Shown in pieces: positions 47,980 to 64,000 of a stretch of DNA of 64,000 nt. Under the pieces are notes generated by a model. It was not told the origin of the DNA and did no database searches. It saw only the letters and a program-made list of their open reading frames with translations. The translations under genes and the position numbers were made by a program. Each line of letters opens with the position of its first letter. Positions within the stretch are counted from its first letter, which is position 1. This DNA is from Cuneatibacter sp. NSJ-177 (GTDB lineage Bacteria > Bacillota > Clostridia > Lachnospirales > Lachnospiraceae): the NCBI RefSeq assembly GCF_022867805.1, contig NZ_JALIFO010000002.1, forward strand, positions 62,001-126,000, read 5' to 3'.

Positions 47980-49269
47980 CTAGATTCGTTTCACAGGATG
48001 AAAGGACAAAGTGGCGACGGACCGGAACACGCCGCCGGCGTAGTCCGTATCGACCGAGCCGTCATAGCGCTCCACGGCGGTGCGGACGCTTTTTAGTCCC
48101 CAGCCGTGCATGGCGGCATCCTCTTTGGAAGTCAAAAGCCGCCCTTCTTCTTGAACCGGCGCTTGCCCGCATCCATTTTCCACTTTGATGATGAGCATAT
48201 TATTAATGCGGCGGATGGTCAGGTTCAAAAAGCGCAGATGCTCCGGAGCCGTTCCGGCCGCTTCTACGGCATTGTCCAATAGATTTCCCAAAATCGTCGT
48301 CAGGTCAACGTTTCGGATGTTGGTGTTGCGGGGAAATTCGATATTTACCTTGGTCCTAACCTGCCTCTGCTCTGCTAGCGCCACTTTACTGCTGATCAGA
48401 TAATCCACGGCCCGGTCGCCGGTCCAGACGGTCTCTGCAATCTCCTTCATGGGCGTACGCAAATCCTCGCAGTATTGCAGGGCCGCTTCCACTTCCCCCT
48501 GCTTTAGCGTTTGATAGATCGCTTCTATATGGTTGTGCAGGTCGTGGTACAGTTTTGCATTGGCCGAGTAGGTCCGGCTCAATGTCTGAAAATCCCGTTC
48601 CAGGATTTCCGCCTGTTCTTCTTTCAGGCGCGCGATTTCCGCTTCCATATCTCTCTGCCGTCCCATACGGTAGAATAAAATCGCAAACAGCAGCAGCATC
48701 GACAGGATAACCCAGGCGCCGGTCCTATCGTCGCCGATGGGCAGGATGGTTTGTTCCGACAGGGTAACCGTGCCGAAGAGCCCCAGCATGGCAAGGATCG
48801 AAACGACCCGGAACGCTTGTGGATTTCCCGGATTCCAGCGTTTGGCAAACAGCACGGCGAGTACGGCCAGGAACAGACGCGTCAGCCAGACGCCGGCCAG
48901 GGATTCCGGCGCTCCTGCATCCAGAAACGCTGCGGTCCGGAACAAGATCCCGAAGGCAGCCGAAAATAGAAACTCCCACAGCGCTACGCCGACTTCATAG
49001 AAAAAGATCAAAAACAGGCAGATTCGCAGCCGTTCCCGCAGGGAATACCAGGAAACCGCGGCCACGAGAAGGATTTCTGCGGCGATCAAACCGGCCGCAG
49101 GCACATAAGCCGCGCCGAAAATCGTGACGGCAGCTTCCCCAAAAACGGCCAGAATCCATGCGTTCCGGGGCAGCGAAACATTCAGCAGCTTCGTCAAAAG
49201 AAACAGCCCAAAAAACAACCGCAATTCGTTGGTCAGCAGACCGGACAGGACTTGATACCATTCGCTCAT
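47980..49269 (-). CDS. Sensor histidine kinase, GHKL type (AgrC/LytS-like)
   Basis: 429 residues. About six membrane segments in the first ~215 residues, then a dimerisation helix with HDLHNHIEAIYQTL (His near residue 241), and a GHKL ATPase domain with NLLDNAVEAAG (N box) and GWGLKSVRTAVERYDG (G box). This layout is that of AgrC-like kinases which pair with LytTR regulators and often sense peptides. The ATG overlaps the stop of the regulator gene (ATGA). No peptide-precursor gene was found in the operon. Confidence 0.88.
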   Translation of the reverse strand: MSEWYQVLSGLLTNELRLFFGLFLLTKLLNVSLPRNAWILAVFGEAAVTIFGAAYVPAAGLIAAEILLVAAVSWYSLRERLRICLFLIFFYEVGVALWEFLFSAAFGILFRTAAFLDAGAPESLAGVWLTRLFLAVLAVLFAKRWNPGNPQAFRVVSILAMLGLFGTVTLSEQTILPIGDDRTGAWVILSMLLLFAILFYRMGRQRDMEAEIARLKEEQAEILERDFQTLSRTYSANAKLYHDLHNHIEAIYQTLKQGEVEAALQYCEDLRTPMKEIAETVWTGDRAVDYLISSKVALAEQRQVRTKVNIEFPRNTNIRNVDLTTILGNLLDNAVEAAGTAPEHLRFLNLTIRRINNMLIIKVENGCGQAPVQEEGRLLTSKEDAAMHGWGLKSVRTAVERYDGSVDTDYAGGVFRSVATLSFHPVKRI

Positions 49270-49985
49270 ATGTGCGCCCCCCAGAACCGGTTGATCTGCT
49301 GTTTGACTTCGGACAGATGGGAACGGCTGATCGGAAGCCGCTCCCCATTTTTTAAAACCGCCGTCCCGCCGCTGATCTTCATGACCTGAATGATATTGAC
49401 AATATACCCGCGGTCAATAAAGAGAAATTCCGGAGCATTCAATTCCTCGTAGACTTGCTGCAGGCTCTTTCTGACCTTCGAGGTTCCGGCGCGGGAGATA
49501 ATGCTGGCGTTCTTCCCGTCCCGCTCGATATAGTAGATATCCTTGAAGGGAATCTTCTCCATACGGCTGCTGGTCTGAATGGTATATTCCTGCCCGGCCT
49601 CCAGCTCGATCCATTTTGCGGCGTCCGTCACTGCGGCGGCCAGCTTCTGATCCAAATTGTTTTTGGGGACATAGCGGAAGACCGACAGCTCGTAGGCGTC
49701 TATGGCATATTCGATGTGCGAAGTCACAAAGATGATTTTGACGTTTGGCAAAAATGCCCGGATCTTCTCCGGAATCTCCATTCCGCTGATCCCCGGCATC
49801 TCGATATCCAGCAAGATCAGATCATAGAAAAAATGATCATCCGCAATATCATCGATCAGATTGCTGCTCCTGGTATAGGCAGTGATTTCGTAACCGATTC
49901 CGCACTGCTGTAAGCTGCGTTTCACAACTTCCTCATCCAGGGCGATGGCCTTTTCCTCATCGTCACAGATTGCAATTTTGATCAC
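49266..49985 (-). CDS. LytTR-family response regulator
   Basis: 239 residues. Receiver domain with IAICDDEEKA and phosphoacceptor Asp in LILLDIEMPGISG (about residue 57), then a LytTR DNA-binding domain (about 140-238: EYTIQTSSRMEKIPFKDIYYIE ... FLFIDRGYIVNI ... LPISRSHLSEVKQQ). The GTG at 49985 with GGGAGG is chosen since receivers begin at the first beta-strand; an in-frame TTG at 50045 also has GGGAGG and would add 20 residues. Partner of the GHKL kinase; likely controls the downstream ABC genes. Confidence 0.88.
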   Translation of the reverse strand: MIKIAICDDEEKAIALDEEVVKRSLQQCGIGYEITAYTRSSNLIDDIADDHFFYDLILLDIEMPGISGMEIPEKIRAFLPNVKIIFVTSHIEYAIDAYELSVFRYVPKNNLDQKLAAAVTDAAKWIELEAGQEYTIQTSSRMEKIPFKDIYYIERDGKNASIISRAGTSKVRKSLQQVYEELNAPEFLFIDRGYIVNIIQVMKISGGTAVLKNGERLPISRSHLSEVKQQINRFWGAHI

Positions 49986-50163
49986 AGCCGTCACCTCCCT
50001 TCTCTCTGTCCACTTAAAATATTTGATTAATCCCTGATCAGCCAAGGGCTCACCTCCCTGCCGGCTGTCCTGATCTGATCTCTTTTTCCAACGACCGCTT
50101 TCATTTTCGTTTTTCCGCGGAAAATCTCCCTTTCACCTGTCGAAACAACACGATGACATTTTC

Positions 50164-52918: not shown

Positions 52919-52979
52919 AAAGAATTTCGCTCTGCGAAATTTATGCGCCGCAAATGTGCCACATCCTGTGGTAGAAAAG

Positions 52980-53016
52980 AGCTGCCGTAAAATTATGAGA
53001 TTTTACGGCAGCTTTT
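52980..53016. terminator. Bidirectional terminator between asparaginase and regulator
   Basis: Perfect 13-bp arms AGCTGCCGTAAAA/TTTTACGGCAGCT around an 8-nt loop, followed by TTTCTATTTTT on the plus strand. A second small repeat AATTTCGC/GCGAAATT lies at 52923-52941. Confidence 0.85.
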
Positions 53017-54351
53017 CTATTTTTCTTCCATACAAATCCGGTAAATATTCACCGGCCGTCCCTTCAGCCCAAGGCGTTTCTGCCCTACGATCTGCGCGGC
53101 CCCGCCTTCCTCCAGGTGGGATAAAATTTTATTGGCCGTGCGCAGGGAGACACCCAGCCGGTTGGTCAGGATTTCCGAGGTCAGTTCCTCATTGCCGCTG
53201 CTGCGGGAAAATTCCAGGATCTTCAAAACATTTTCCGAAGACAGGCGGCAGCGGGATGCTACCTTTTCCACGAAGTCCGAGGAGACCGCCTCCGTCTGAC
53301 CGTCCCCTTTCCGGACCCGGTGGTTGGCCAGGAGAATAATATTGTTTTGATTGTTGATCAGATAACTTTGAAAAACCCCCTCCGAAGCCCGGCGCGCCGA
53401 CAGAGCCGCCGCCTCATAGGCATTTTCTCTGGCCTGCTGGAGGCTGATGCCGATCCCATAACCCACGCCGCCTTTAAAACGCAGCTCCTGGCGCAGATAT
53501 TCGTACAGGGGGCTTCTCGTGAAATTCTCCGTCATCTGCTGCACGGTTTGAGCGTCTGTATAAATCTCAAAATCCGTCTGAACCGGCTTCAAAATCAGGT
53601 TATATCCGGTCTTCTGGCTGAAATTGTATATGGCCTGCTGGAATTTCAAACTTCTCTCTTCCCCACGGGCCCCAGCCTCCTCGGAACGCATATCAAAATA
53701 GATCAGAGCGGTCAGACCGTTTTTCATGGTCTGAAGTTCCAGCCCTTTTCTCAGCAGGTCAATCTTATAGAGGATTTCGTTCCGGGTCGGCTCAATGAAA
53801 TGGTAGGGTACCCCCCGCTCCTCAAACATCCGGATCGCAACTACCGAACGGGTCACGAAAAAACGGATCCTCCCCTCCTCAATGGCTCTGCGGTGACGGG
53901 TCACCATCTCCTGCTCGTAAGTGATGGTCTGATCCTCCGTAAAATTCCGCACCATCACCACCTCGTCCGTCATCATCTGCTCTAAACGATTGTGGAGTAC
54001 GATTTCCCTCAGATCATCCTGCTCTCCCATCAAATCCAGGCGGATGCTGCCCAGATCCAACCCCGGACTCAAGACGCTTTTTTCCAGCAGATAGCGGTAA
54101 TAGCTCTCCACCGTCGTGTTGAAATATTCCTGCGGCACATCCCGGCGCGGGGACAGCAGAGATATAAACCGGTCAGAAAATACGCCGGAGCTCAAAAAAC
54201 CGTCGTATTCCTTTTCCGTAGCCAAAAAAGCTTCCTTTAAGTCCATCAAGGAATCGACATAGTAATAATCAACCCGCAGGCCCGGAAATTGTTCCTTTAC
54301 GATCTTCCCCTCCGTCTGCAGACGGCTGTAAAATGCAACCTTGTATTCCAT
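53017..54351 (-). CDS. Transcriptional regulator with degenerate GGDEF-like region and C-terminal winged helix
   Basis: 444 residues. The N-terminal ~200 residues begin MEYKVAFYSRLQTEGKIVKE and resemble sensory modules of the PrpR-N type. The middle (about 215-340) ends in GGVGYGIGISLQQARENAYE, then AAALSARRASEG, similar to the degenerate GGDEF region of PucR/CdaR-like regulators. The last ~75 residues form a winged HTH (SSENVLKILEFSRSSGNEEL, TSEILTNRLGVSLRTANKIL). I do not recognise a named family. Placement directly after the hydrolase-ABC operon suggests it controls that operon. Confidence 0.68.
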   Translation of the reverse strand: MEYKVAFYSRLQTEGKIVKEQFPGLRVDYYYVDSLMDLKEAFLATEKEYDGFLSSGVFSDRFISLLSPRRDVPQEYFNTTVESYYRYLLEKSVLSPGLDLGSIRLDLMGEQDDLREIVLHNRLEQMMTDEVVMVRNFTEDQTITYEQEMVTRHRRAIEEGRIRFFVTRSVVAIRMFEERGVPYHFIEPTRNEILYKIDLLRKGLELQTMKNGLTALIYFDMRSEEAGARGEERSLKFQQAIYNFSQKTGYNLILKPVQTDFEIYTDAQTVQQMTENFTRSPLYEYLRQELRFKGGVGYGIGISLQQARENAYEAAALSARRASEGVFQSYLINNQNNIILLANHRVRKGDGQTEAVSSDFVEKVASRCRLSSENVLKILEFSRSSGNEELTSEILTNRLGVSLRTANKILSHLEEGGAAQIVGQKRLGLKGRPVNIYRICMEEK

Positions 54352-54468
54352 AAACCTTCTCTCTCATCCCCCGCTGTCTTTCCTCGCGTTTCCAGCAACT
54401 ATTAAAACTTTACCACAATCTGGACCGAAGTTCAATCTCTGTCGCTTTCCATCCGCCAAACAAAAAGA

Positions 54469-54553
54469 GCGCTGCAAAATTCGTTCAGCCGAGGCTTTCG
54501 GCCTGCCCAACCGGCAGACTTTCTGCTCTGTGACCCTTCGTATTTTGCAGCGC
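54469..54553 (-). terminator. Long branched hairpin, terminator of the hydrolase-ABC operon
   Basis: 12-bp perfect outer stem (GCGCTGCAAAAT at 54469-54480, ATTTTGCAGCGC at 54542-54553) enclosing about 61 nt with two smaller stems, GCCGA/TCGGC (54488-54502) and CTGCC/GGCAG (54503-54517). On the minus strand TCTTTTTG follows, as for a terminator. The branched interior is unusual for a plain terminator. Confidence 0.6.
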
Positions 54554-54600
54554 GTCTTCCTTTTCTCTATCTACTTTCTCTCCCACTCCGAAAATAGCTT

Positions 54601-56142
54601 CTAATCCTCAACCACTCCGGTCAAAAACGCGTCCGTACTCTCCATAAAGCTGCAGTTCCTAGTATGCTCCACAAAAATCCCGTTTCCCACAAAGCGGATC
54701 CGCAGAGTGTTGATATAAGAGGTTTCCTCAAAGCAGAGTTTCAGGCAGTAACTCCCATCTTCCTTCCAGGCCCCGCTTGCCGCCACCTTCTCAAACAGGA
54801 TGGAAATGTCCGTGTCCGTATCCTTTGTCTTTACCGAGGTTTCCCCCTCGGCCCAACAGTCAAACCCGATCGGGGCGGTAAACACGCCTTCCCGGCTTTC
54901 CAGCGTAAAGGAATCCTTCCCTTCCTCCGAAAAGTGGAAGGTCAGAGCATTCCAGTTCAGCCGGTTATCCCCCAGGCGGTAGCGCCTTCCGGAATAAGCA
55001 AGACGCTCTTCGGCTCCGGAGGGGCGTCCCGCGGGAACCGGAATGCGGAACCCGGAAATCCGCTTCCGCTCTTCCTCCCAAAGGGCTTCCCCCTGCACCA
55101 TTCCTGTCTTTCCCAGGGCTTCAGACGACTCCTTCATTCCCGGAACCAGAACCTCCCAGACCAGATTTTCAATGGCTTGGCGCTCCGGCCCATTGGCGCC
55201 CGCCGTGTAAACCACCACGGCTCCCAGTTCCGGGAACACGGTGCAGATCTGACCGCAGGCTCCGCGAAGGGAAAACGCATTTTCCCTGGAATCCACCCAG
55301 ATCTGGTAGCCGTAGCCAGCCATGTCAGGGTTCGCCTTCGAGTGCATGGGAATCTGCACGGTTGTGGCCCGGTTCACCCAATCCTCGCTTAAGAGCTGCC
55401 GGTCTTTCCAGCGTCCTTTCTGCATCAGGAAAATTCCGGTTTTCAGCAGATCTTCGGTCTTAACCATCAAACCCCAGCCGCCGACATCATACCCCTTCGG
55501 GTCCAGCTCCCAGGTAGCTCCCGTGATGCCAAGAGGTCCGAACAGCTTTTCTTCCAAATATTCCAGTATGGTTCTCCCGGTCGCAAGCTGCACGATCACC
55601 GAGAGCATGTAGGTGCCGTGGGTACAGTAGACAAACTCTGTTCCCGGCTCATAGGCCACATAGTGGTGAAAGAAATTCCGGACCCAGTCAATGTCGTCCA
55701 GGATCTTTTCCTCGTGGAAGCAGCCGGGGCTCCGGGCCAGAACATCGTCGGGCCGCGGCCAGTTAAAATCATGGGGATCCGCGGCAAATCCGGTGCTCAT
55801 GGTCAGGAGATGCCGCACCGTCATCTTTTCCATATTTTCACAGGTCTTAGCCGGAAGGCGGTCCTGAAAAAAGGAAACCACCGACTGGTCCAAAGACAAT
55901 ACCCCTTCCTCCACGGCAAAACCTACCGCAAGGCCGGTATAGGTTTTGCTGGCGGAAAACAGCGTGTGGCCCAGTTCCCTCCGGTAAGGCTCCCAGTAAG
56001 CTTCCGCCGCGATCCCGCCGTTCTTGTAGACCAAAAAGGAGTGAAGGCCCAGTTCGGGATCCTCCAGCTTCCGATACAATTCCGCCAACGAGGCGGGGGA
56101 AATCCCCGCCTCGTCCGCCGTAATCCGTTTAAATTCACTCAT
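54601..56142 (-). CDS. Serine hydrolase, class C beta-lactamase fold
   Basis: 513 residues. The catalytic SxxK motif is S63-A-S-K66 in LFSASKTYTG. The second motif, usually YSN/YAN, is Y172-C-T here (FVYCTHGTYML), so the Asn is replaced by Thr. The N-terminal ~340 residues are the penicillin-binding/esterase fold; the ~150 C-terminal residues are beta-rich and probably an accessory domain. No signal peptide, so it acts in the cytoplasm. Relatives include D-aminopeptidases, esterases and amide hydrolases. Three bp after the ABC permease stop, it is the last gene of that operon and likely works on the imported compound. Confidence 0.83.
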   Translation of the reverse strand: MSEFKRITADEAGISPASLAELYRKLEDPELGLHSFLVYKNGGIAAEAYWEPYRRELGHTLFSASKTYTGLAVGFAVEEGVLSLDQSVVSFFQDRLPAKTCENMEKMTVRHLLTMSTGFAADPHDFNWPRPDDVLARSPGCFHEEKILDDIDWVRNFFHHYVAYEPGTEFVYCTHGTYMLSVIVQLATGRTILEYLEEKLFGPLGITGATWELDPKGYDVGGWGLMVKTEDLLKTGIFLMQKGRWKDRQLLSEDWVNRATTVQIPMHSKANPDMAGYGYQIWVDSRENAFSLRGACGQICTVFPELGAVVVYTAGANGPERQAIENLVWEVLVPGMKESSEALGKTGMVQGEALWEEERKRISGFRIPVPAGRPSGAEERLAYSGRRYRLGDNRLNWNALTFHFSEEGKDSFTLESREGVFTAPIGFDCWAEGETSVKTKDTDTDISILFEKVAASGAWKEDGSYCLKLCFEETSYINTLRIRFVGNGIFVEHTRNCSFMESTDAFLTGVVED

Positions 56143-56145
56143 CTC

Positions 56146-57408
56146 CTATACCTCTTCACTCTTTTTCTTCCGGTCCACGCGGGATCTCCAGGCATGGAGG
56201 ATCAGGGCGACGGCAATGATGCCATAGCAGGCCACCATCCGGAAGTATCCTCCGACCATGGAATTGGAGAACATGTTCTGGGCCGCCAGAGGGCTGACGT
56301 TGAACAGCAGATGGAACAAAAGCGTGCCTAAAATCGCCTGCCCGATCGTGGCCTTCTGCACCGAGGCTCCGCCGATCAAAATGGCGGCGACGCAGTAGGT
56401 TCCCACTTTTTCATGGCCGTAGTAGGTATCCATGGTTCCCAGGTTCTGGTAGAAGATAATCTGTCCCAGAGCGGCAATCACCGTGGAAAGGATGATCGCC
56501 TGGATCCTTACCTTATCCACCCGGATCCCGGCGGAGGCAGCCACCTTGCGGTCATGGCCGACCGCCCGCATATCCTGGCCCAGCTTCGTCTTCATAAACG
56601 CCTGGATCAAAATGCAGACTCCGATGATGACCAGATACGTCGGGATCGGCACCCGCACCATCATCTTATACATGACGAGGGCAGGCAGATTGTATCCCAC
56701 CGCGCCGGCCACGATCAGGGCGGCGCTGATGCCAAGGCGGATCCGGTATTTCTTTTCCCGGTTCTTTTTGACCAGAACGCGGAAGAGATAGTAAAGCAGG
56801 AACAATGCTCCAAAGAACATCATAGCCGTAAACAGATCCACCTTCGTGCTGACGCCGAAGATCTTAATGTCATCCAGGGCGTACTGCATGGAATCCAGGG
56901 CAATCGTATTTTTGATGCCGATTCCGCTGGAAAGCAGCAGATCTGAGGAAAATTTGATCACGCCGCCTGCGATGAACAGGAAGATAAACTGATAGATTCC
57001 ATTGGCAAAGAAGCCAAGGATCATGCTGGTGATCATTTCCTGCCCTTTGGTCTGGTTCAGCATCTTTCCGGCCAGGAAGCCGCAGAAGGAGGCCACCACC
57101 ATCGCGATCAGCATGGCGATCAGGATCGCAGGCAGCCCCTGGATCTTCCAGATGCTGACCAGGATCAGCCCCACCTGACCGCTCATGGCGCCGAGGACAA
57201 TACCGAAGTTCAGGCCCATGCCGCTGATGACCGGCAGGATCAAAGAGAGCACCAGGAGGGCGTTCCGGTCAAACCGGTTCACTAAATCCGACAGGATGGT
57301 CGGTATGCCGGTTCCCGAATAATAGACGCCGACCGCACAGAAACAGGCAAACAGCAGAGGGACAATGTTTTTTCCCAGGAAGCCCCTGACTTTTCCGTTC
57401 TTTCCCAT
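56146..57408 (-). CDS. ABC transporter permease 2 (BPD_transp_2/RbsC family)
   Basis: 420 residues with about 9-10 membrane segments; GMGLNFGIVLGAMSGQVGLILV near the N-terminus and GHDRKVAASAGIRVDKVRIQAIILS in the long loop are typical of sugar/nucleoside-type permeases. The ATG overlaps the stop of the first permease (TAATG). Works as a heterodimer with it. Confidence 0.9.
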   Translation of the reverse strand: MGKNGKVRGFLGKNIVPLLFACFCAVGVYYSGTGIPTILSDLVNRFDRNALLVLSLILPVISGMGLNFGIVLGAMSGQVGLILVSIWKIQGLPAILIAMLIAMVVASFCGFLAGKMLNQTKGQEMITSMILGFFANGIYQFIFLFIAGGVIKFSSDLLLSSGIGIKNTIALDSMQYALDDIKIFGVSTKVDLFTAMMFFGALFLLYYLFRVLVKKNREKKYRIRLGISAALIVAGAVGYNLPALVMYKMMVRVPIPTYLVIIGVCILIQAFMKTKLGQDMRAVGHDRKVAASAGIRVDKVRIQAIILSTVIAALGQIIFYQNLGTMDTYYGHEKVGTYCVAAILIGGASVQKATIGQAILGTLLFHLLFNVSPLAAQNMFSNSMVGGYFRMVACYGIIAVALILHAWRSRVDRKKKSEEV

Positions 57409-58448
57409 TATCTTTCACCTCCTGCCTGAGACAGCGCGTACAAAATGATACCGTTGGATACGATGATCCGGAATACCTCGGACAGATTTCCGTCCGGAAG
57501 CAGCATGTTGGCCACCGGGAGCGCCGCGGTCAGCATGGTCTGGAACAGCAAGGTTCCGATGATTGCATGCCAGACGCTGACCTTTTTCATTGTAGCGCCG
57601 CCTAAAAGCACCGCTGCCATCGGGGTAAAGGACATGGTAAGCGGGGCTTCGTACATCGAATAAAAGCCATAGCTCTGCGCGTAAACCACAATGCCGAGGG
57701 CGCCCAGGGCCGTCGAGAGGGACGCGCCGATGATCCGGCAGCGGTTCACGTGGATTCCCGAAGAATTGGCGTACTCCGGGTTGTCCCCGGCTGCCTGGAG
57801 CGTCACGCCCACCTTGCTCTTACAGAAAATCCGGATGATCCAGCAGATGCCAAACACAAACAGAAATAGCCCGGTTGGGATCGTAACGCCGCCGATCTGA
57901 AATGACAGAAAATTATTGAGCACATGCTCGTAGTATCCGCTTAAGGTGACCGTGGAGCGGACACCGTCGCCGCCCATGGGCCAGATGATCGCCGGATTCT
58001 TAAAGGGCGCGATAAACCAGAACATACAGAGCAGATAGACCACCGCATAGCCCAGATAGTTTCCGATCAGCATCTCTGATCCTTTAACCCCGTTTAGAAT
58101 CCGACCGTAAAGGACGCCGACGGCGCTCCCGATCACCAGGGCGATCAGGCTGGCGCAGGCGATGCCGACCCAGGAGGTCAGTCCCATCTCAATGCTGACG
58201 AGGCCGCCGAACAGGCCGCAGACGATGCCGATGGCAAGGCCCATGTTGAGGCCGATGCCGGAGAGAATCGCAGGCATCATGGCCAGCGCAAAAATCAAGT
58301 TCATCCCAAAGCGGACCAGGGAGTCGCTGACCAGCTGCTTCATATCCTGCCCCTGCAAAAAGGCGCCGATGAAGATCAGGATGATAAAGGCAATGATGAT
58401 GATGCGGGGCAGCCCCAGCTGGTGCATCCGTTTTTTAACCGTTTCCAT
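57408..58448 (-). CDS. ABC transporter permease 1 (BPD_transp_2/RbsC family)
   Basis: 346 residues with about 8-9 membrane segments; AAGDNPEYANSSGIHVNRCRIIGASLS is the conserved cytoplasmic coupling region. It starts 12 bp after the ATPase stop, with GAGGTG as ribosome site. Two different permeases with one double-domain ATPase is the layout of the nucleoside/BMP importers. Confidence 0.9.
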   Translation of the reverse strand: METVKKRMHQLGLPRIIIIAFIILIFIGAFLQGQDMKQLVSDSLVRFGMNLIFALAMMPAILSGIGLNMGLAIGIVCGLFGGLVSIEMGLTSWVGIACASLIALVIGSAVGVLYGRILNGVKGSEMLIGNYLGYAVVYLLCMFWFIAPFKNPAIIWPMGGDGVRSTVTLSGYYEHVLNNFLSFQIGGVTIPTGLFLFVFGICWIIRIFCKSKVGVTLQAAGDNPEYANSSGIHVNRCRIIGASLSTALGALGIVVYAQSYGFYSMYEAPLTMSFTPMAAVLLGGATMKKVSVWHAIIGTLLFQTMLTAALPVANMLLPDGNLSEVFRIIVSNGIILYALSQAGGER

Positions 58449-58460
58449 AGTATCACCTCT

Positions 58461-60035
58461 CTACTTTCCGCCCATGGCAAGGCCAAATTCCTCGTTGGTC
58501 GCATCCGGCGGCAGAATGTCCGCCACTTTACCGCCTGAGACAATGGCGATCCGGTCGCAGACCTGGCGCAGCTCCCCAAGCTCCGAGGACGTGAACAGAA
58601 TGGTGACGCCAGTCTCCTCATTGATCCGGGAGATCGTCTCCAGCACGATGGATTTCGCGCCGATGTCGATGCCTCTGGTCGGTTCCGAGACCAAGAGTAC
58701 GTCCGGCTGCAGCAGAATTGCCTTCGCAATACAAACTTTCTGCTGGTTTCCGCCGGAAAGGCTCTTCACCTCCTGTTTCGGCCCGGTGCAGCGGATTTGA
58801 AATTCTTCTATGTATTTCTTCGCGGTCTCCTCCACCTTTTTCTTGTCGATCTGGTGGAAAGGCCCGAATTTCCGAAAGAACTCATCGTGGTTTACCATGG
58901 CCGGAATCACCATGTTCATCTCGATAGAAAGATCCGGCGCAAATCCTTGCTGCTTCCGGTCCTCAGACACAAAAGCAAATTTTGCCCCGATGGAACTTTT
59001 CGGGGAATTCAGCTTTAAAGGCTTTCCGAATACGGTGATCTCCCCGAAAGTCGGATAGATTCCCATGATTCCGTTGGCAACGCCCAGTTTTCCCTGTCCG
59101 GCCAGGCCGCCGATACCGAGGATTTCCCCTTTATATACATCCAGATTGATGCCGCTGACCCGCTCCCCCGGCATATCCACCCGGAGGTTTTTGATCGACA
59201 CGGCAATCTCTTTGTTTTCCGATTCGTCCCGGTCGCGCTGCTTTACGGCGACCAGCTCTCTGCCCACCATCAGCTCGGCGATCTCGCCGGCCGTGGTATC
59301 CGCAATTTTCATGGTCTTCACATTCAGTCCGTCCCGCAGGATCGTGACCGTATCCGCCACGTACATAATCTCGCCGATCCGGTGGGTGATCAGCAAGACG
59401 GCGATGCCAAGTTTCGACAGCCGCTTGATGATATCCAGGACGATCTCCGCTTCGGACTCCGCCAATACCGCCGTGGGTTCATCCAGGATCAATAACTTTA
59501 CGTTACTCTTATCCAGCTCGCGTGCGATTTCTACAAACTGCATGTAGCCGACCGGAAGGGTTTCCACGTCGGCGTGGGGATCCAGCTCCACCCCCAGCCG
59601 GTCCAGGGATGCCTCGGCATCCTTTTCGATCTGTTCAAAATCCACATTGCGGAGCTGCTTGCCGAAAACGCGGCTCAATGCGCCGTTTTTCAGGGGTTCC
59701 CGGTTCAGCTTGATGTTCTCTCCGACCGTAAAGCCGGGGATCAGCATGAACTCCTGGTGAACCATGCCGATGCCGTAGGCAATGGCTTCCTGAGGTTTTT
59801 TGATCTGCACTTCCTTCCCGTCGATCAGGACCTTTCCCGTATATCCCCCGGTGGACGAGATCACCGGCATTCCAAACAGGATATTCATCAGCGTGGATTT
59901 TCCTGCGCCGTTCTCCCCGCAGAGCGCGTAGATCTCTCCGGGCATAATATCCAGTGAAACATCCTGAAGCACCTGGTTGCCGGAAAATGCTTTTCCGATA
60001 TTTTTCATGGAAAGCACTGGTGTAATTTCAGCCAT
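58461..60035 (-). CDS. ABC transporter ATPase with two ABC domains (RbsA/MglA-like)
   Basis: 524 residues. First domain: Walker A GENGAGKST (about 40-48), Walker B LLILDEPTAVL, H-loop ITHRI. Second domain: degenerate Walker A GGLAGQGKLGVA (about 293-304), signature LSGGNQQKVCIAKA, Walker B VLLVSEPTRGID. This tandem form is usual for sugar and nucleoside importers. A terminator-like hairpin separates it from the binding protein gene. Confidence 0.93.
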   Translation of the reverse strand: MAEITPVLSMKNIGKAFSGNQVLQDVSLDIMPGEIYALCGENGAGKSTLMNILFGMPVISSTGGYTGKVLIDGKEVQIKKPQEAIAYGIGMVHQEFMLIPGFTVGENIKLNREPLKNGALSRVFGKQLRNVDFEQIEKDAEASLDRLGVELDPHADVETLPVGYMQFVEIARELDKSNVKLLILDEPTAVLAESEAEIVLDIIKRLSKLGIAVLLITHRIGEIMYVADTVTILRDGLNVKTMKIADTTAGEIAELMVGRELVAVKQRDRDESENKEIAVSIKNLRVDMPGERVSGINLDVYKGEILGIGGLAGQGKLGVANGIMGIYPTFGEITVFGKPLKLNSPKSSIGAKFAFVSEDRKQQGFAPDLSIEMNMVIPAMVNHDEFFRKFGPFHQIDKKKVEETAKKYIEEFQIRCTGPKQEVKSLSGGNQQKVCIAKAILLQPDVLLVSEPTRGIDIGAKSIVLETISRINEETGVTILFTSSELGELRQVCDRIAIVSGGKVADILPPDATNEEFGLAMGGK

Positions 60036-60101
60036 GTGTTTCCTCCTCTCAATTCTTTTCCCATGGATAACTGCAAGACTTTTTCTTTACGCTGATTCGC
60101 A

Positions 60102-60136
60102 AAAAGCACCATAGAGTGCCCCCTTATGGTGCTTTT
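60102..60136 (-). terminator. Hairpin/attenuator between binding protein and ABC ATPase
   Basis: Perfect 12-bp stem AAAAGCACCATA/TATGGTGCTTTT with T-tract on the minus strand, 30 bp after the binding protein stop. Since the next genes clearly belong to the same importer, it is likely a leaky terminator that keeps the binding protein in excess. Confidence 0.65.
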
Positions 60137-60166
60137 CGCGTCAGCCAAAAGGCGATCGATACCGGA

Positions 60167-61402
60167 TTACAGGGTTACGAAATCCATCAGGAAGGCAAAA
60201 TACTGCGGGTAGGTCGTCCCGTTATTTTCCCATTCGGTCAGATAGACGTTCACATCCATACCGGCCATCTCATCAGCCCGCTTGTCGATGAGGTCGGTCA
60301 TCGCTTTGATATCGGTTTTCTCCGTGATCGTGCCCTCGGCATAAGCGCAGGCATAATCATAGATTGCATAGAAGTAAAGTGCGGAAGAAGCGACCGGCCA
60401 GGTCGCGGTGCGCCCGGTCATGCCAAGCTCCGCCATCTTTGCCTTGATCTGCTCCACAGCATACTGGGCGTCGTTGGACTTGTCGTCCGGGATCTGGATA
60501 CCCAGGCCGCTGATGAATCCCTGGAACGGGCTGGGGTCACAGGTGGAAGGAAGCATGGCTCCGCTCTCCACGGTGGCCTTCACGATCACGTCCATCATGG
60601 CCGTGTTGGTTCCAAAGAACGCGGTATCTTTGCCGTACTCGGTTACCTTCTTCGGGATGTCCTCCAGGATAAACTGCTGGGTTCCGGTTACACCGGCGTC
60701 GCCCATGGGATCCGGGGAGGTCTCTTCCACGAACTTGATGCCAAGCTCCTCACATTTCGCCTTCATGATGTCGCGGCGGTTTGCCAGAAGCTCCATGGCC
60801 ATATGGCGCGGGAAAGAATAATGTACAAATGTGGTGGCTCCCATGGCCTTGGCCTGCTCGATAATCGTATTTCCCATGCCGGTCTGGTTCGGGTTCAGCA
60901 TAACGTCGAAGGCGGCAGCCGACACAGCCGGGTCCTCGGCCACAACGCCGCAGGCATACCACACGTCCGGACGGACTTCCTTACAGGCCTTCACAGCCGC
61001 TGCGCAGCCGTCCTGCTCCTGGAAGATCAACAGCGCTTTCACGCTCTCGTCGGAAACCAGAGAAAGCGCCGTGGACATAATGGCTTCCGGCTCCTTGTTC
61101 GGAAGCACCGCGCCGACGATCTTATCGCCGTACTCGGCTTTCAGATTCTCATAGGCACGCACCGGCTCCTCGCCCTGGGAAGAATCCGTGTAAATGATGG
61201 CGATCTTATAATCCGAGGCCGCCTGGGCTCCGGTCGCGTCTGCCGCTGTGGATCCACCGGCCGCCGTTCCAGCTGCCGTCGTGCCGTCCGCTGCGCCTCC
61301 CGCCGCCGTGGTGGTGGTATTGCCGCCGGAACATCCGGCCAGCACAACCATCATTGCGGCCATCGCGATAGCCGCTGCTTTCTTACCTAATCTGAGTTTC
61401 AT
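60167..61402 (-). CDS. DUF3798 substrate-binding lipoprotein
   Basis: 411 residues. Lipobox LAGC (Cys24), a Thr/Ala/Gly-rich linker to about residue 62, then a periplasmic-binding-like domain: DYKIAIIYTDSSQGEEPVRA, FQEQDGCAAAVKACKEVRPD, TTFVHYSFPRHMAMELLANR. I assign it to DUF3798, whose ligand is unknown; the operon partners show it feeds a sugar/nucleoside-type ABC importer. ATG at 61402 with AAAGGAG; upstream extensions are unconserved. First gene of the operon that ends with the serine hydrolase. Confidence 0.85.
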   Translation of the reverse strand: MKLRLGKKAAAIAMAAMMVVLAGCSGGNTTTTAAGGAADGTTAAGTAAGGSTAADATGAQAASDYKIAIIYTDSSQGEEPVRAYENLKAEYGDKIVGAVLPNKEPEAIMSTALSLVSDESVKALLIFQEQDGCAAAVKACKEVRPDVWYACGVVAEDPAVSAAAFDVMLNPNQTGMGNTIIEQAKAMGATTFVHYSFPRHMAMELLANRRDIMKAKCEELGIKFVEETSPDPMGDAGVTGTQQFILEDIPKKVTEYGKDTAFFGTNTAMMDVIVKATVESGAMLPSTCDPSPFQGFISGLGIQIPDDKSNDAQYAVEQIKAKMAELGMTGRTATWPVASSALYFYAIYDYACAYAEGTITEKTDIKAMTDLIDKRADEMAGMDVNVYLTEWENNGTTYPQYFAFLMDFVTL

Positions 61403-61462
61403 GGGATCACGCTCCTTTTCTTGTCTGTTTTTTTCACATTTTCCCAATGTGTCGAACACTCC

Positions 61463-61491
61463 TTGACTTCTCCTTCCGCAGATGTTACTAT
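61463..61491 (+). promoter_or_regulatory. Promoter of the M20 amidohydrolase gene
   Basis: TTGACT (61463-61468), 17-bp spacer, TACTAT (61486-61491; an overlapping TATAAT follows at 61489). About 115 nt upstream of the start codon. No clear -35/-10 pair for the divergent importer operon was recognised. Confidence 0.5.
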
Positions 61492-61608
61492 AATGCTGTA
61501 TTTAAAGAATGCTTTCGGAATGTTCTTAATTATCATAGCATACTTTTTTACCATCCGCAAGTATTACTTGTCGAAAATCTACAACTCATCATAAAAAGGA
61601 GAGAACAG

Positions 61609-62820
61609 ATGGACAACAGAAAAATAGAGGCGGCCGGCTGCATGGCGGATTTGACCCGTTGGTACCGGGACCTGCATCAAATTCCGGAGATCGGTCTGAA
61701 TCTGCCGGAGACTTCCGCCTACATAAAAAAAGAGCTGACGGCCATGGGGTATCAGCCGGTCACTCTCTGCAATCACAGCCTGTGCGCGCTGCTCGCCGGA
61801 TCGCGTCCGGGGCCGACCATACTCCTGCGGGCCGACATGGACGCTCTTCCCATGGAAGAAATCAACGATCTCCCTTTCCGCAGCCAAAAAAAGAATGCGG
61901 CCCACATGTGCGGCCATGACTCCCATATGGCCATGCTCCTCGGCGCGGCCAAACTGCTGAAAGCCCGTCAAACCGAGCTGGCCGGAAACGTCAAATTTAT
62001 GTTCCAGGCCGGGGAGGAGGGGTTCAACGGTGCTCTGGAAATGGTTCAGGCGGGAATTTTGGAGAATCCGAAGGTGGACGCCGCCATGGCCCTTCACTGT
62101 CTCTGCGGAGACCGGTATCCCGCCGGGACCATGCTCTGCGCCGTGGACGGACCGGCCAAGGCTTCTGCGGACACCTTCTCCATCCGCGTCTATGGAACCG
62201 GCTGCCACGGCGCGATGCCGGAGACCGGCGTGGATGTGATCAATATCCTCTGCCATATCCAAAACAATCTCCAGACCATTGTCAGCCGGGAAATCAGCTG
62301 CTTTGCGCCTGCGGTCCTCTCCATCTGCCATATCGACGCCGGCAGCGCCGCCAATATTCTGCCGGAGGAGGGGATGATGGAGGGAACGATCCGCACCTTT
62401 GATGAAGCGGTGCGCAAAAAAATCAAACAGCGCCTTTCGGAGATTGCAGACGCCACAGCAGCTCAGTTCGGAGGCCGGGCAGAAGTGCTTTACGCCGACT
62501 GCCTCGGCGCAACCATCAATGATACAGATCTGGCTGCCGAACTGTTCTCTTATGTGAAGGATCTGTTGGGCCCGGAGCAAACAGACGTCATCGGACCGAT
62601 CATGGGCGCGGAGGACTTTTCGGAAGTCAGCAGCCGGGTTCCCACCGTTTACATGGACTTAAGCTTTGGAAGCATCAAGGAAGGCTATCCCCACCGCGTC
62701 CACAGCCCCTACTTCCGGATCAATGAGGAAGCCCTTCCGGTCGGGGCCGCCTGCTTTGCGGAGTGCGCCATGCGGTATTTAGAGACCCACGGGAAGAAGG
62801 GGGCGGATTCCGCCTCTTAA
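61609..62820 (+). CDS. M20D-family amidohydrolase/aminoacylase
   Basis: 403 residues. Metal and catalytic motifs of the M20D group: ADMDALPMEE, HMCGHDSHMAMLLGAAKLL, FQAGEEGFNGA (the catalytic Glu pair), and a later His in ALHCLCGD; the small lid domain is in the middle (about 175-290). Such enzymes remove acyl groups from N-acyl amino acids, or hydrolyse IAA conjugates and dipeptides. ATG at 61609 with AAAAGGAGAG; a longer frame runs through the promoter. Divergent from the importer operon, convergent to the second amidohydrolase. Confidence 0.9.
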   Translation: MDNRKIEAAGCMADLTRWYRDLHQIPEIGLNLPETSAYIKKELTAMGYQPVTLCNHSLCALLAGSRPGPTILLRADMDALPMEEINDLPFRSQKKNAAHMCGHDSHMAMLLGAAKLLKARQTELAGNVKFMFQAGEEGFNGALEMVQAGILENPKVDAAMALHCLCGDRYPAGTMLCAVDGPAKASADTFSIRVYGTGCHGAMPETGVDVINILCHIQNNLQTIVSREISCFAPAVLSICHIDAGSAANILPEEGMMEGTIRTFDEAVRKKIKQRLSEIADATAAQFGGRAEVLYADCLGATINDTDLAAELFSYVKDLLGPEQTDVIGPIMGAEDFSEVSSRVPTVYMDLSFGSIKEGYPHRVHSPYFRINEEALPVGAACFAECAMRYLETHGKKGADSAS

Positions 62821-62841
62821 ACGCCGGAACTTTTCCACAGA

Positions 62842-62887
62842 AAAAGGAGCGGGAGGATTTTTTTGTCCTTCTGCTCCTTTGCTTTTC
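62842..62887. terminator. Terminator between the two amidohydrolase genes
   Basis: Imperfect long stem: AAAGGAGC-GGGAGGA pairs with TCCTTCT-GCTCCTTT, followed by GCTTTTCC on the plus strand. Confidence 0.6.
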
Positions 62888-62944
62888 CCTTCCTGTTAAC
62901 CGGGCCAAACGATCCGGCGGCAGGCAGCCGCGCCCGCCAATGTC

Positions 62945-64000
62945 CTAAGCCTCGCTCCGGTGAACTTCTTTCCCGCCCATGAATACAACCTTCAACCGGT
63001 TCAGGGCCGTGATGTCCTCCGCCGCATTTCCTTCGACCACGATCAAATCCGCTTGCAATCCCTCCTTCAGCTGGCCGGTCAGGGATTCGATCCCCAGCAC
63101 CCTGGCCGGATTGCCGGTGGCGGTCTGGATCGCCTGCAGCGGAGTGATTCCATACTCCACCATCAAAGATAACTCCCGGTTGATCGGAAGAGGCGGCGCG
63201 TTGTACAGGACCATGTCGCTTCCGGCCAGAACCGTCACGCCGGTATCATACAGCTTTTTGAAATTATTTTTATAGGCAAAGTAGGCGGGCTCAAAGAAGC
63301 CCATATCCCGGATCGCCTTCGCCGCAATGCGGTCGCTGGGATCCGCACCGGAGGCAATGATCTCTTTGGTGAACTCGTACAAAACCGTGTAGGCCGTGAT
63401 GGTCGGATCCCAAGCAATGCCCTTTTCCGCCATCTGCTCCGCCTGCTCCACGGTCAGGAATGTACCGTGCTCGATGGTGTCGAAGCCCGCATCGATACAC
63501 ATCTGGATCGAGGGTGGAATCCCCGCGTGAACCACGCACTTTCTTCCGACCCGGTGGGTTTCATCCACCGCAGCGTCCAGCTCTTCCTGGGTAAATTCCG
63601 GAATCGACGCCCGGTTGCTGGTTAGAATCTTGATCCAGTCCGCGCCGTCGCGGATCTGTTCCCGGATTTTTTTTCGGATCGGCCAGGGCCCGTCTACTTC
63701 CGGAATCCCGTCGTCATGGCCGTGGCCTCCGGTCATGCAGATTCCCGTGTCGGTGTGGAAAATCCGCGGCACCGTGAGATATCCTTTCTCGCCGGCCAGA
63801 CGCAGCTGCTTCATCAGATTGTGGGGGGAAGAAACGTCACGCACCGTGGTAATCCCTAGCCGGATCGCATGCTTGGCCTGCTCCGCCGCATAGTAGGCAA
63901 TCATGAAATCATCAAAATTCGCCTGGTCCGGCTGGCTGTAATAGTAGCCGAAATGGACGTGCATGTCGAACAGGCCGGGAAGCAGGGTAGCGTCCCCATA
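62945..64000 (-). CDS. Amidohydrolase, imidazolonepropionase/prolidase-like (5' end outside window)
   Basis: At least 352 residues, entering from the right edge in frame as YGDATLLPGLFDMHVHFG. The HxH metal motif is MHVHFG; further ligands are K/H in ADWIKILTSN and KCVVHAGIPPS, His in IEHGTFLT, and Asp in VTVLAGSDMVL. This set is typical of the PF01979 group that includes Xaa-Pro and Xaa-Arg/Lys dipeptidases and imidazolonepropionase-like enzymes. With the M20 enzyme and the serine hydrolase it makes three different amide-bond hydrolases around one importer. Confidence 0.88.
   Translation of the reverse strand, partial: YGDATLLPGLFDMHVHFGYYYSQPDQANFDDFMIAYYAAEQAKHAIRLGITTVRDVSSPHNLMKQLRLAGEKGYLTVPRIFHTDTGICMTGGHGHDDGIPEVDGPWPIRKKIREQIRDGADWIKILTSNRASIPEFTQEELDAAVDETHRVGRKCVVHAGIPPSIQMCIDAGFDTIEHGTFLTVEQAEQMAEKGIAWDPTITAYTVLYEFTKEIIASGADPSDRIAAKAIRDMGFFEPAYFAYKNNFKKLYDTGVTVLAGSDMVLYNAPPLPINRELSLMVEYGITPLQAIQTATGNPARVLGIESLTGQLKEGLQADLIVVEGNAAEDITALNRLKVVFMGGKEVHRSEA

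Follow-up and report, generated by a model that had tools for sequence, protein, structure and literature searches.

A conserved cassette of gut Clostridia joins a DUF3798 ABC importer to an M20D amidohydrolase, a serine hydrolase and a regulator of an unnamed family

Escherichia coli takes up and cleaves p-aminobenzoyl-glutamate by means of abgABT-abgR, which brings together an M20-type amide hydrolase, a dedicated transporter and a regulator. CUT2 importers of sugars and AI-2 (Rbs, Xyl, Lsr) combine a type I binding protein, a double ATPase and PF02653 permeases. The locus described here resembles Abg in these three elements, but its transporter is a DUF3798 ABC importer instead of AbgT, its regulator is not of the LysR type, and it has an extra serine hydrolase; Pfam and NCBIfam searches detected neither an AbgT transporter nor a LysR regulator in the cassette. 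Its importer follows the plan of Rbs, Xyl and Lsr, yet the binding protein belongs to DUF3798 and hydrolases stand where those systems have sugar enzymes. We propose, with a probability of about 0.6, that the cassette mediates the regulated uptake and hydrolysis of an amide-linked amino-acid conjugate or small peptide. The outline, an importer plus hydrolases, is ordinary; what sets the cassette apart is a regulator that is conserved but unnamed, together with a predicted operator and a ligand class for DUF3798 that can be tested.

The window, by which we mean the whole 64-kb stretch that was analyzed (C3:62001-126000), comes from a genome of 4.28 Mb that is 99% complete. Every open reading frame named in the first-pass annotation is present in the ORF list of the window at the coordinates given there, and profile searches against Pfam and NCBIfam agree with the families it had assigned to the importer and the three hydrolases. 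On the reverse strand lie genes for the DUF3798 substrate-binding lipoprotein (60167-61402; 411 residues, lipobox LAGC), the double ATP-binding subunit (58461-60035; two ABC_tran stretches in Pfam), two PF02653 permeases (57408-58448 and 56146-57408), a cytoplasmic serine hydrolase of family PF00144 (54601-56142) and the regulator (53017-54351). From the ATPase gene onward the spacing is operon-like: 12 bp before permease 1, a 1-bp overlap between the permease genes and 3 bp before the serine hydrolase. The M20D amidohydrolase gene (61609-62820, forward strand) diverges from this operon, and a PF01979 gene (62945-64000, reverse strand; 118 bits) converges on it and runs off the edge of the window. 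A plausible ribosome site precedes every start in the set. A terminator-like hairpin of 16 pairs follows the M20D gene (62843-62880, forward strand), and a bidirectional one in the gap between the regulator and an asparaginase gene (52977-53016) marks the other edge of the cassette. A longer hairpin separates the serine hydrolase from the regulator (54469-54553, reverse strand; fold z-score -3.7); its arms, 12 bp each, pair perfectly and enclose a structured loop of some 60 bases, and TTTTT follows. We considered a riboswitch in this gap and rejected it: an Rfam search with the hairpin gave no family, and its sequence is not common to the relatives, one of which carries a different hairpin there. 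An Rfam scan of the whole window returned tRNAs only. The hairpin is likely a terminator, and the regulator is therefore probably a separate transcript.

With the DUF3798 protein as query, a scan of 84,980 genomes returned 50 loci, and the cassette is rare: four of them carry it, which makes five with the window. The order M20D, then divergently DUF3798, ATPase, two permeases, serine hydrolase and regulator, is kept in the window and in L021, L022 and L023; L020 has the same order up to a contig edge, where the M20D position falls off. The hosts are gut bacteria; the same-genus relatives of the window genome include Candidatus Pseudolachnospira avium, which marks it as a gut bacterium of Lachnospiraceae type, L021 is labelled as a Lawsonibacter MAG and L022 as a Lachnospiraceae MAG of the RUG (rumen) series. 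Distant members are 61-63% identical to the window in DUF3798, 50-55% in the serine hydrolase, 53-56% in M20D and 34-37% in the regulator, values low enough to argue that conservation does not reflect recent copying. M20D, importer, serine hydrolase and regulator thus constitute one unit.

The first-pass annotation had grouped the importer with M20D, serine hydrolase and PF01979 genes beside an unclassified regulator, and had named co-occurrence in relatives as the check. M20D recurs with the importer and the serine hydrolase wherever the contig reaches, and the regulator travels with them; the PF01979 gene is in none of the relatives L020 to L023. Had an orphan DUF3798 importer merely come to lie beside unrelated hydrolases, one would find importers of this kind elsewhere and hydrolase genes scattered through the genome. 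Both are found: 95 loci of the wider DUF3798 family, though none in the close clade, have the importer without the serine hydrolase and the regulator, and the genome has 13 M20 places and roughly 20 that pass the family cut-off of PF01979. Against such an accident stand the gene order, kept across distantly related hosts, and a common promoter region with a shared motif, and we regard it as scarcely probable for the set as a whole. Accidental grouping is contradicted for M20D, the serine hydrolase and the regulator; it holds for two neighbors. We rejected the PF01979 gene as a cassette member, since it is missing from the relatives, convergent, situated past the M20D terminator-like hairpin and unremarkable in a genome with that many copies; it is a bystander, not the third enzyme of a pathway. 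This gene is complete (401 residues) in L002, and its ORF in the window, which covers 351 of the 401, scores 203 bits against the Xaa-Pro dipeptidase model NF051886, whose equivalog cut-off is 500. Upstream of the PF01979 gene and just outside the window, inspection by eye suggests a likely oleate hydratase beside a TetR-like regulator (L002:12333-14811). The asparaginase was likewise rejected: among cassette loci it occurs in the same-genus ones only and is conserved no further than the genus.

The lipoprotein matches PF12683 (DUF3798) with 294.7 bits against a cut-off of 24.6 (9.2e-88), and the cassette alignment retains the motifs HYSFPRHMAME and PDP. Its AlphaFold model (pLDDT 87.5) has the type I periplasmic binding fold. 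The closest structure is 3qi7, a DUF3798 protein of Clostridioides difficile, which has the same fold (Z 37.7) at an identity of only 24%; its annotation goes no further than a putative regulator, and we know of no ligand for it. Behind it, with Z values near 17-19, stands a group that includes the AI-2 receptor, 4-hydroxybenzoate and p-coumarate binders, LivJ and sugar binders. All these match about equally, so the fold does not decide between a sugar and an amino-acid conjugate, and we dropped a ligand call based on it. The first-pass annotation had likened the importer's architecture to that of nucleoside/sugar transporters, and it is indeed of the CUT2 type: a type I binder, a fused double ATPase and two PF02653 permeases. 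It could accordingly be asked whether the cargo is a sugar or nucleoside from which the hydrolases only strip acyl groups, ester- or amide-linked. The CUT2-like layout fits this, as do an ATPase whose nearest NCBIfam models are xylose, GguA and allose ATPases (all far under cut-off), the many sugar binders among the structural neighbors and the esterases and acyl transferases within PF00144. Yet no cassette contains a recognized sugar or nucleoside catabolic gene, and with the partners of the regulator and of other DUF3798 importers, described below, also against it, an acylated sugar or nucleoside is an unlikely cargo.

The serine hydrolase scores 114.8 bits against PF00144 (cut-off 27), is kept in all five cassette loci and has invariant S63-x-x-K66 and Y172 in the cassette alignment. 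It shares the fold and the SxxK and Tyr catalytic residues of NylB and class C beta-lactamase-like hydrolases but carries an extra C-terminal region of about 170 residues. Among solved structures, those closest to it in sequence include 6-aminohexanoate-dimer hydrolases, enzymes that cleave amides. That all three hydrolases act on amide or peptide bonds, as had been supposed, does not follow for this one: PF00144 also covers esterases and acyl transferases, and the enzyme may have either amidase or esterase activity. TIGR01891 recognizes M20D with 293 bits (curated cut-off 153.75), every specific NCBIfam model leaves it under cut-off, and C101, H103, E136, E137, H163 and H365, the metal and catalytic residues, are invariant in the alignment. 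Its nearest solved relatives, IAA-amino acid hydrolase, YxeP and N-acyl-glutamine aminoacylase, belong to the same family, have the same metal ligands and cleave N-acyl amino acids. Neither hydrolase has an evident signal peptide on reading of the sequence.

Two further readings start from PF00144. The family includes D-aminopeptidase and PBP relatives, and the window has a histidine kinase/LytTR pair at 47980-50045 (by eye, a sensor kinase and response regulator of the AgrC/AgrA kind); the cassette might then recycle or detect peptide signals or cell-wall fragments and have no nutritional role. The other cassettes lack the kinase pair and no murein enzyme is nearby, and we consider such a role quite improbable. 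Alternatively, the substrate could be a bile-acid or other host conjugate, with the serine hydrolase a BAS-suc-like acyl transferase or esterase and M20D an amidate hydrolase. The hosts do live in the gut, and the top NCBIfam model for the serine hydrolase, matched over nearly its full length, is NF045925, the model of BAS-suc, which is of the beta-lactamase type and succinylates cholic acid (PMC11749272). But the match reaches 251.3 of the 800 bits set as cut-off, by which the enzyme is not BAS-suc, and no recognized bile-acid gene lies nearby; a host conjugate of this kind is very unlikely.

DUF3798 is over cut-off in 13 of 150 genomes of the family and 47 of 391 of the class, and its neighbors elsewhere bear on the ligand. 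A peptidase of the M19, M20 or M24 family lies within two genes of the DUF3798 operon in 15 of 95 non-cassette loci, against two among 597 genes farther off, a count that rests on crude gene calling (greedy ORFs), covers a minority of loci and includes several cases from one clade. These are M19 dipeptidases, PepV-like or AbgB-like M20 enzymes and M24 peptidases, and M24 stands beside DUF3798 importers in three bacterial families. The recurrence of three unrelated peptidase families is a lead that favors small peptides or peptide-like compounds as DUF3798 ligands; it speaks against a sugar or nucleoside. A literature search found mentions of DUF3798, none with an assigned function. The wider family varies in other ways. 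In Christensenellales-type loci (L029-L062), the permease 1 ORF has about 620 residues against 346 in the window, some 270 extra. In seven loci of one bacterial family (L153, L155, L168, L171, L173, L174 and L187), a sensor kinase/response regulator pair lies directly upstream of DUF3798. L182 to L185 carry, in constant gene order, a tandem pair of DUF3798-type lipoproteins with no adjoining ABC genes, and DUF3798 may have another role there.

The regulator had been described as of unclear family, an assessment that stands: no Pfam or NCBIfam model is over cut-off, and one relative, in L125, passes just over that of HTH_24. An alignment of 25 loci and a partial model suggest a layout of an N-terminal part, a GGDEF-like middle (about 210-340) and a winged helix (about 358-440). 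Model pLDDT is 60 overall and the N-terminal half is too poor for use; the GGDEF-like assignment draws on weak Foldseek matches of that model to DgcZ, GcbC and Rv2242 (best E 5e-3). A PrpR-type N-terminal sensor, suggested by eye, has an hhalign probability of 3% against one PrpR sequence. A profile built from five copies finds relatives in 21 of 397 genomes of the family and 11 of 391 of the class, the window's own genome being counted in both. We examined the surroundings of 20 of these matches, all in non-cassette loci. In 15, the regulator has an M20 or M42 hydrolase no more than two genes away, compared with one among 171 genes at greater distance (Fisher p 1e-8, which overstates independence because the loci are partly related); in L132 it is three genes away, and in L129 and L130 a contig edge adjoins the regulator. 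The enzymes include the TIGR01891 type, AbgB-like and another M20, and one M42, and the transporters are as varied: DUF5058 with a second membrane protein, two MFS groups, an unassigned membrane protein and a Gate-domain pair. The link between regulator and hydrolase thus persists while enzyme and transporter types change, and the partners belong to a clan of amide hydrolases, against what a sugar or nucleoside cargo would lead one to expect. Regulator-M20D pairs in L119, L120, L126 and L134 are accompanied by a second, Pfam-less membrane protein, with DUF5058 in L120 and L126; these may serve to import N-acyl amino acids or peptides. One distant regulator copy (L138:7561-10464) adjoins, by eye, a tryptophanase/tyrosine phenol-lyase-like gene and no M20 enzyme. 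A literature search returned no paper on such a regulator and no mention of DUF5058; on that search the family is undescribed, and its link to the M20 clan alongside other transporters is new here.

A candidate operator lies in the gap between the divergent DUF3798 and M20D genes, at 61500-61527, with half sites AGAATGCTT and GGAATGTTC 11 bp apart; it is also an imperfect dyad. The repeats were first spotted by eye, partly in the cassette loci, and the motif width was therefore not chosen blind, but the training set was separate: nine intergenic regions between the regulator and TIGR01891-type M20D genes, from non-cassette loci only. An EM search of these yielded a motif of 22 bp whose half sites repeat at 11 bp, with a log-likelihood of 84 where shuffled sets reached 50-55; a de novo search at 9 bp returned the ribosome-binding site, and only the 20-22-bp motif was used. 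Its top match on both strands of the window is 61500-61521 (13.3 bits; next 8.3), and in L021, L022 and L023 the best match likewise falls in the DUF3798/M20D gap, the region scanned being missing from L020. Column-permuted motifs hit the gap in all four loci in none of 500 trials and in the window alone in four of 500. Scores are 13-17 bits in cassettes and 17-26 in the training loci; the motif is absent from regulator loci of the AbgB type, and it is linked to the regulator by position. Candidate promoters, both recognized by consensus match, lie on either side: one for M20D at 61463-61494 (forward; TTGACT, then TACTAT or TATAAT) and one for the importer operon at 61532-61559 (reverse; TTGCGG and TATGAT). 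With the site flanked by the -10-like boxes of these divergent promoters, a single bound protein could govern the two transcripts.

The computed gene set, its conservation, the regulator-M20 linkage and the shared DNA motif lead us to a scheme in which we infer the cargo class, the order of cuts, the sensing and the sign of regulation. The DUF3798 lipoprotein would capture the ligand, and the double ATPase and two PF02653 permeases would carry it into the cytoplasm, where M20D would cleave an N-acyl or peptide amide bond and free an amino acid. The NylB-like serine hydrolase would cut a second bond, amide or ester, either in that compound or in a processed version of it. The regulator may sense the ligand or a product, probably through its N-terminal and GGDEF-like parts, while its winged helix would bind the 11-bp repeats around 61500-61527, which overlap the points where the two divergent transcripts are predicted to start; in the simplest case it would repress both. 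Of the original proposal, the genes, their families and the conserved linkage hold, and an amide-linked small molecule is likely as cargo, given the regulator-M20 link and the peptidases beside other DUF3798 importers; PF01979 membership does not, and amide cleavage does not follow for all three enzymes.

A broader reading, to which we give somewhat less than even odds, is that the regulator founds a family controlling M20/M42-clan hydrolases of Clostridia, in many cases through 11-bp repeats, with the transporter (DUF3798 ABC, DUF5058, MFS or others) swapped freely, and that DUF3798 binds small peptides or N-acyl amino acids. If this is true, such a cargo would be unusual for CUT2-type importers. 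The analysis would supply a testable ligand class for DUF3798, a domain present in about one-eighth to one-twelfth of sampled Clostridia genomes, and a founder, with a predicted operator, for an unnamed regulator family. Gut M20 hydrolases act on conjugates of host and dietary origin and set amino acids free, and the pairing of transporters with these enzymes may help to read gut metabolism from genomes.
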